A stretch of 64,000 nt of DNA from Opitutus sp. (GTDB lineage: Bacteria > Verrucomicrobiota > Verrucomicrobiia > Opitutales > Opitutaceae). The stretch is from contig JACEUQ010000001.1 of NCBI GenBank assembly GCA_024998815.1, positions 248,001 to 312,000 of the forward strand, in the 5' to 3' direction. The position numbers and the translations under genes were made by a program. Positions 52,487 through 53,600 of the stretch are shown here, in pieces. How positions within the stretch are numbered: position 1 is the stretch's first letter; every line of letters starts with the position of its first letter. Below the pieces are notes generated by a model. The model searched no databases and was not told the origin of the DNA. It saw only the letters and a list, made by a program, of their open reading frames with translations.

Positions 52487-52562
52487 TGGTGGCAAAACTC
52501 GGATTTGAACCGAGGACACGCGCATTTTCAATGCGCTGCTCTACCAACTGAGCTATTTTGCC
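52487..52562 (-). tRNA. tRNA-Phe (anticodon GAA)
   Basis: On the minus strand, GGCAAAATAGCTCAGTTGGT starts a 76-nt cloverleaf including an encoded CCA. Acceptor GGCAAAA pairs with TTTTGCC, the anticodon stem-loop is GCGCATTGAAAATGCGC with anticodon GAA, and the T-arm contains GGTTCAAATCC. Confidence 0.96.
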
Positions 52563-52745
52563 GTGAAGGAAGCCGAGAGCAAAAGAGCTCCATGAGCGGC
52601 GTCAATGGGAATCTCAATGATTTCCCTCGATTTATCCATAATCGATTTCGATCCCAAAAGGTGTCCCCCGCCGCTGTTTCCGCCACCTCCGTCTGCGTCC
52701 TTGTCAAGCGCCGGTCGACCTCGCAACTTCGCCCTTTTTCCTACC

Positions 52746-53600
52746 ATGCGTTTCCATAAATACCACGCCCTCGGCAATGATTACATCGTTTGTGACCCCG
52801 TTGATTTTCCTCAGTGGAAAAACGGCCCCTCCGTCGATGAGATCCGCGTGATCTGCCACCGCAATTTTGGCGTCGGTTCCGATGGCATTCTTTGGGGCCC
52901 GCTGCCTTCCGCCAAAAGCCAATTTGGCCTGCGCATCTTTAACCCTGACGGTTCCGAGGCGGAAAAATCGGGCAACGGCCTGCGCATTTTTTCGCGCTAC
53001 CTGTGGGATCAAAAACTCACCCCGGCGGCGACTTTCACCATCGAAACCCCCGGTGGCCATGTCCAGTCGGTCATCAAGGACAACGGCAAGCTCATCACTG
53101 TGGACATGGGTTCGGTGAGCTTCCTGAGCACCAAAATCCCCCACACGGGGCCGGAGCGTGAGGTCATCAATGAGTCGATCACTGTTCTCGACCGTACGTT
53201 CACCTACTGTGCGGCCACCATTGGTAACCCGCATTGCGTGATCCCGCTGCCCGCGGTCACCGCCGAGATGGCCCACCGCTACGGTCCGCATCTGGAAACG
53301 CACTCCAATTTCCCGCGCAAGACCAACGTTCAATTCATGCAGGTGATCGACCGAAACAACATCCGCATTGAGATCTGGGAGCGTGGTGCCGGCTACACCC
53401 TCGCCTCGGGCAGCAGCTCCAGCGCCGCCGCCTCGGTGGCCCACAAACTGGGCTTGGTCGATGCCAACGTCACCGTGCACATGCCTGGTGGCCAGATCGG
53501 TATCGAGATCGGGGACAACTTCGCCATCCGCATGACCGGTACGGTTAACAAGGTGGCCGACGGGGTCATGCACCCCGAGTTATTCGCGGTCAAAGTTTGA
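52746..53600 (+). CDS. dapF: DapF-family diaminopimelate epimerase homologue with both catalytic cysteines replaced by serine
   Basis: 284 residues from ATG 52746 (MRFHKYHALGNDYIVCDPVD). The substrate-binding segments HALGNDY, FNPDGSEAEK, TIGNPHCVI and the Glu-Arg of WERGAGYTLA match DapF. In E. coli the two catalytic bases are Cys73 (CGNGARC) and Cys217 (ACGSGACA). Here the equivalent residues are Ser75 (SGNGLR, codon TCG 52968-52970) and Ser221 (ASGSSSS, codon TCG 53406-53408). The fold and ligand site look intact, so it may be a slower enzyme, a different isomerase or a non-catalytic homologue. The rest of the lysine/DAP pathway is not in this window. Confidence 0.85.
   Translation: MRFHKYHALGNDYIVCDPVDFPQWKNGPSVDEIRVICHRNFGVGSDGILWGPLPSAKSQFGLRIFNPDGSEAEKSGNGLRIFSRYLWDQKLTPAATFTIETPGGHVQSVIKDNGKLITVDMGSVSFLSTKIPHTGPEREVINESITVLDRTFTYCAATIGNPHCVIPLPAVTAEMAHRYGPHLETHSNFPRKTNVQFMQVIDRNNIRIEIWERGAGYTLASGSSSSAAASVAHKLGLVDANVTVHMPGGQIGIEIGDNFAIRMTGTVNKVADGVMHPELFAVKV

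Follow-up and report, generated by a model that had tools for sequence, protein, structure and literature searches.

A dapF-like gene in a window of 64,000 nucleotides from Opitutus sp. (contig JACEUQ010000001.1) encodes a protein of 284 amino acids, here P0001, with serine at both positions that hold the catalytic cysteines in the diaminopimelate (DAP) epimerase DapF. This Ser/Ser type of DapF is the rule in the order Opitutales and is not peculiar to this Opitutus genome. It is probably the organism's sole DAP epimerase, working with a pair of serines in place of the pair of cysteines. Function as a DAP epimerase is most likely and well supported by the genome evidence, and the chemistry through serines is what we infer from the sequences.

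P0001 would convert LL-DAP made by DapL to meso-DAP, for MurE in the cell wall pathway and for LysA in lysine synthesis. The DapF fold and the DAP-binding site would be retained, with the C-alpha proton moved by Ser75 on one face and by Ser221 on the other. Lys74, which adjoins Ser75, and Ser224, at +3 from Ser221, might tune and orient the serines, perhaps together with Tyr13. On balance we lean towards a Ser/Ser acid-base epimerase that would act on an unactivated C-alpha proton with no cofactor, tuned by the lysine and the extra serine, and that would be the main source of meso-DAP in the order.

Serines at both catalytic positions

DAP_epimerase was the sole Pfam family reported for P0001 (E 3.3e-56), and the protein scores 231.4 bits with the DapF equivalog model TIGR00652, above the curated cut-off of 114.65. 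The closest solved structures by sequence are all DapF. The AlphaFold model (mean predicted local distance difference test, pLDDT, 93.5) has the DapF fold over its full length and matches DapF chains at Z about 28-37 across 258-277 residues. Its top match in the PDB is the cyanobacterial DapF of Anabaena (9mro, Z 36.9 over 272 residues), practically tied with an O-ureidoserine racemase (Z 36.7), and proline racemase-type folds rank lower (Z about 25-27). The structures of the C73S and C217S mutants of Haemophilus influenzae DapF (2q9h and 2q9j) are also among the matches.

In H. influenzae the two catalytic residues are Cys73 and Cys217; P0001 has Ser75 and Ser221 instead and is therefore best described as a Ser/Ser-type member of the DapF sequence family. 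It is a DapF homologue that probably works like DapF but lies outside the two-cysteine class. An earlier note, made from the sequence alone, had placed serines at exactly these two codons (Table 1), and both translation and alignment agree. It had also described the motifs and substrate-binding segments as preserved. An alignment of 119 Ser/Ser with 44 Cys/Cys DapF proteins bears this out: the DAP-binding residues N11, N64, N157, H159, N190, E208 and R209 (H. influenzae numbering) are kept in all 119 of the Ser/Ser group. Compared with the DapFs of TIGR00652, H. influenzae (1gqz) and Anabaena, P0001 is thus alike in fold, in all DAP-binding residues and in pathway position. The differences are the two serines and seven positions that have shifted in step with them, listed in Table 1; Gly51 likewise varies in step with Ser75 and Ser221.

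These accompanying changes bring in a second reading, which we regard as rather unlikely, namely that the protein is an active DAP epimerase in which Lys74, Tyr13 or Tyr217 is the base, or the thiols Cys37 and Cys164 transfer the proton, and the serines serve for binding or positioning. Lys74, Tyr13 and Tyr217 mark the Ser/Ser group and hardly vary within it; Cys37 is present in all 119 Ser/Ser proteins and Cys164 in nearly all. In one cysteine-type DapF the catalytic sulphurs have no basic residue within 4 Å, and the first cysteine is preceded by a methionine in a loop curving round the substrate (PMC12039745). However, Cys37 is also common in the Cys/Cys proteins (31 of 44), and two Ser/Ser proteins have another residue in place of Cys164. 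The serines at the catalytic sites, conserved in 119 of 119, are also kept more strictly than Lys74 or Tyr217, each found in 118.

Serine was found at both sites in every relative of the Ser/Ser type, 118 of 118 distinct proteins. The relatives comprise 29 from the same genus, family or order, 2 that are more divergent, 80 loci of a named genome collection and 8 in a sample of the phylum. Among the distinct proteins, Ser75 is encoded by TCN in 78 and by AGY in 40, and Ser221 by TCN in 107 and by AGY in 11. TCN and AGY codons cannot be interchanged by a single-base change, and the retention of the serines across such switches therefore shows selection for serine at both sites. Correspondingly, all 44 distinct Cys/Cys DapF proteins have cysteine at both sites, and no mixed Cys/Ser DapF occurs among these 118 and 44 proteins. 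In a tree of 90 proteins the Ser/Ser forms make up a single clade, set apart from all others by a long branch (1.8 changes per column) with support 100/100.

The conserved relatives and the use of both serine codon families rule out a sequencing error or a pseudogene. The argument against random decay in the earlier note is strengthened by the same data, and neither of the trivial explanations that it had allowed for, cysteines at the catalytic positions on alignment or a sequencing error, applies.

The meso-DAP pathway in Opitutus and Opitutales

The Opitutus sp. genome comprises 3 contigs, is 99.93% complete and has the gene for P0001 as its sole PF01678/DapF gene. It encodes a full-length DapL (564 bits), LysA (448 bits) and a MurE carrying the DNPR motif, which is the mark of DAP-adding ligases. 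The DAP dehydrogenase Ddh, which makes meso-DAP directly, was not found in this genome. Since LL-DAP is made by DapL and meso-DAP is consumed by MurE and LysA, the Ser/Ser DapF is the sole recognised link between the two.

A survey of 196 Opitutales genomes with completeness of at least 95% gave a strong match of the Ser/Ser type in 163, only a distant or weak Cys/Cys-like match in 22 and no DapF in 11. The Ser/Ser state, whose extent the earlier note had proposed to settle by alignment with relatives, is thus characteristic of the order. Ddh scored above its cut-off in 8 of the 11 genomes without DapF, from three genera (G336, G186, G213, G359, G365, G383, G385 and G419), compared with 5 of the 185 with DapF (Fisher p 4e-9, with genomes counted as independent and relatedness uncorrected). 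Neither DapF nor Ddh was found in three near-complete Opitutales genomes (G358, G394 and G453). In one genus, g3, some members have both DapF and Ddh and one has Ddh only.

Three of the 22 genomes with weak matches (G020, G030 and G261) were examined. They have Cys/Cys DapFs that group together in the tree of 90 proteins, and in these genomes the Ser/Ser DapF is replaced by a Cys/Cys DapF. DapL is still present beside the Cys/Cys DapF in G020 and G030. The loss of dapF where Ddh supplies meso-DAP, together with its replacement by Cys/Cys DapF, points to a role of the Ser/Ser protein in meso-DAP production.

The double replacement had been taken in the earlier note to imply altered chemistry, a different substrate or another epimerase elsewhere in the genome. 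Another epimerase is unsupported among recognised enzymes, with one DapF and no Ddh in the nearly complete genome. A different substrate or reaction, such as elimination, dehydration or racemisation of another diamino acid, is improbable. Ornithine has been detected in hydrolysates of Opitutaceae, a Ser/Thr pair accompanies dehydratase activity in the proline racemase family (PMC4113996), several further positions are altered in step with the serines, and a few cyanobacteria hold both types of DapF. On the other hand, the DAP-binding residues are invariant, the genome has no other recognised source of meso-DAP, and the losses of dapF, which accompany Ddh, and the Cys/Cys replacements track the supply of meso-DAP. 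One cyanobacterial Ser/Ser copy also lies close to a lysA-like gene (see below). That leaves altered chemistry on the same substrate.

The least probable reading, to which we give very little credence, is that P0001 has no catalytic activity and is retained for some other function, such as binding a partner, with meso-DAP made by an unrecognised enzyme or with a cell wall built on LL-DAP. DapF of Escherichia coli does bind another protein, RppH. Cysteine enzymes of this fold are crippled when mutated to serine (PMC11602996), and thin-layer chromatography (TLC) showed no DL-DAP in Lacunisphaera (PMC5303756). A dead enzyme is nevertheless hard to combine with the full conservation of the substrate ligands and the serines, with the presence of LysA, a user of meso-DAP, and with losses of dapF that coincide with Ddh.

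Several points also weigh against the Ser/Ser epimerase that we favour. As an acid/base partner the hydroxyl of serine is normally much inferior, and in enzymes of this fold activity falls sharply when a single cysteine is engineered to serine (PMC11602996; PMC12039745). DAP is present in Opitutaceae, including Opitutus terrae and Lacunisphaera, by gas chromatography-mass spectrometry (GC/MS), which speaks for the favoured reading, and a DapL route including DapF has been listed from the genome, but the level of DAP is about 1/10 of that in E. coli and DL-DAP was unseen by TLC (PMC5303756); meso-DAP itself is therefore unproven in the family. The pattern of Ddh rests on few independent events, and the Cys/Cys state of the weak-match genomes is confirmed for the 3 of 22 only. 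Cyanobacteria with Ser/Ser copies have a Cys/Cys DapF as well, so that a separate role is possible there. Finally, no biochemistry of the Ser/Ser type was found in the literature searched.

Ser/Ser DapF outside Opitutales

Beyond Opitutales, Ser/Ser DapF occurs in other Verrucomicrobiota (loci of subdivision 3; L211 and L218), and the remainder of the phylum sample examined is Cys/Cys. Two of 59 cyanobacteria have a Ser/Ser DapF, each alongside a Cys/Cys DapF. These cyanobacteria have one or two Ser/Ser copies besides the Cys/Cys DapF (loci L173, 1456-3767, L164 and L234), apparently acquired by lateral transfer. In L173 the Ser/Ser dapF lies 48 bases downstream of a lysA-like gene, and this is the sole locus with lysA adjoining. 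No match to dapL or lysA near dapF was found in the short flanking sequences of the Verrucomicrobiota loci. Plasmid records gave only distant DapFs (best 43% identity), which proved to be Cys/Cys when read.

Related enzymes and implications

The H. influenzae C73S and C217S mutants resemble P0001 in having serine at the same position, one each. They are engineered single mutants, in contrast to the natural double serine of P0001 with its accompanying changes. No paper on these mutants was found in the open literature, and neither was a description of a Ser/Ser DapF (subscription literature lay outside the search). Some public protein entries carry an automatic remark that an active-site cysteine is replaced by serine, so annotators may have seen the substitution.

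Serine does serve as a catalytic residue in the proline racemase family, where a Ser/Cys pair is functional in 4-hydroxyproline epimerase and a Ser/Thr pair is found in trans-3-hydroxyproline dehydratase; the serine-type enzymes have their catalytic serine on one face, held in position by the residue at +3 (PMC4113996). P0001 is like these in fold class and in having a catalytic-site serine, and Ser224 at +3 of Ser221 may be comparable to their positioning residue. The proline racemase family enzymes differ in having one catalytic serine, another substrate and about 10-17% identity to the P0001 model. The ligands of P0001 are those of DAP, and its sole Pfam match is to DAP_epimerase.

DapF of Chlamydia trachomatis, which belongs to the same superphylum, is bifunctional and also acts as glutamate racemase (PMC5885031). 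D-glutamate is needed by the cell wall pathway. The glutamate racemase MurI was not found in the Opitutus sp. genome and is lacking in 24 of 37 genomes searched, its own included. MurI is lacking in many members of the superphylum (PMC5885031). The Chlamydia enzyme, however, retains and requires both cysteines (PMC5885031), and P0001 scores 63 bits with the model for bifunctional DAP epimerase/glutamate racemase (NF038284), below its cut-off of 350.

Enzymologists have long asked how a proton of pKa about 29 can be abstracted, with no cofactor involved, by a cysteine thiolate whose pKa is about 8. A DapF with a natural Ser/Ser pair must use a different base or trick and would allow the contribution of the active site to be tested directly; its function in Opitutales would go unexplained by the accepted cysteine mechanism. 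It also bears on the DAP question in verrucomicrobial subdivision 4, which has long been described as lacking DAP (PMC5303756). If the favoured reading is true, the epimerase would be expected to escape thiol-directed DapF inhibitors and to be immune to the disulfide formation in the active site that is reported to switch off DapF in Corynebacterium glutamicum (PMC5296763).

Upstream of the dapF ATG the same frame stays open for 47 codons (52605-52745). The short form of the open reading frame (ORF) was taken as the gene because relatives begin at the inner ATG.

Table 1. Coordinates of the dapF-like coding sequence (CDS) and of active-site codons in the window
Feature	Position	Strand	Basis or residues in the two groups
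dapF-like CDS, 284 amino acids, Ser/Ser type	52746..53600	+	ORF, Pfam, TIGR00652; start from aligned N-termini of relatives
Tyr13 codon	52782..52784	+	Tyr in 119/119 Ser/Ser; Phe in 42/44 Cys/Cys
Lys74 codon, adjoins Ser75	52965..52967	+	Lys in 118/119 Ser/Ser; Met in 40/44 Cys/Cys
Ser75 codon (TCG), first catalytic Cys position (H. influenzae Cys73)	52968..52970	+	Alignment to solved DapFs
Ile81 codon	52986..52988	+	Cys in 43/44 Cys/Cys
Gln196 codon	53331..53333	+	Glu, Asn or Asp in Cys/Cys
Glu209 codon	53370..53372	+	Arg in 43/44 Cys/Cys
Tyr217 codon	53394..53396	+	Tyr in 118/119 Ser/Ser; Glu, Ile, Ala, Val or Pro in Cys/Cys
Ser221 codon (TCG), second catalytic Cys position (H. influenzae Cys217)	53406..53408	+	Alignment to solved DapFs
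Ser224 codon, +3 from Ser221	53415..53417	+	Ser in 119/119 Ser/Ser; Gly in 44/44 Cys/Cys

A tRNA-Phe gene (GAA) lies at 52487-52562 on the minus strand, divergent from dapF.
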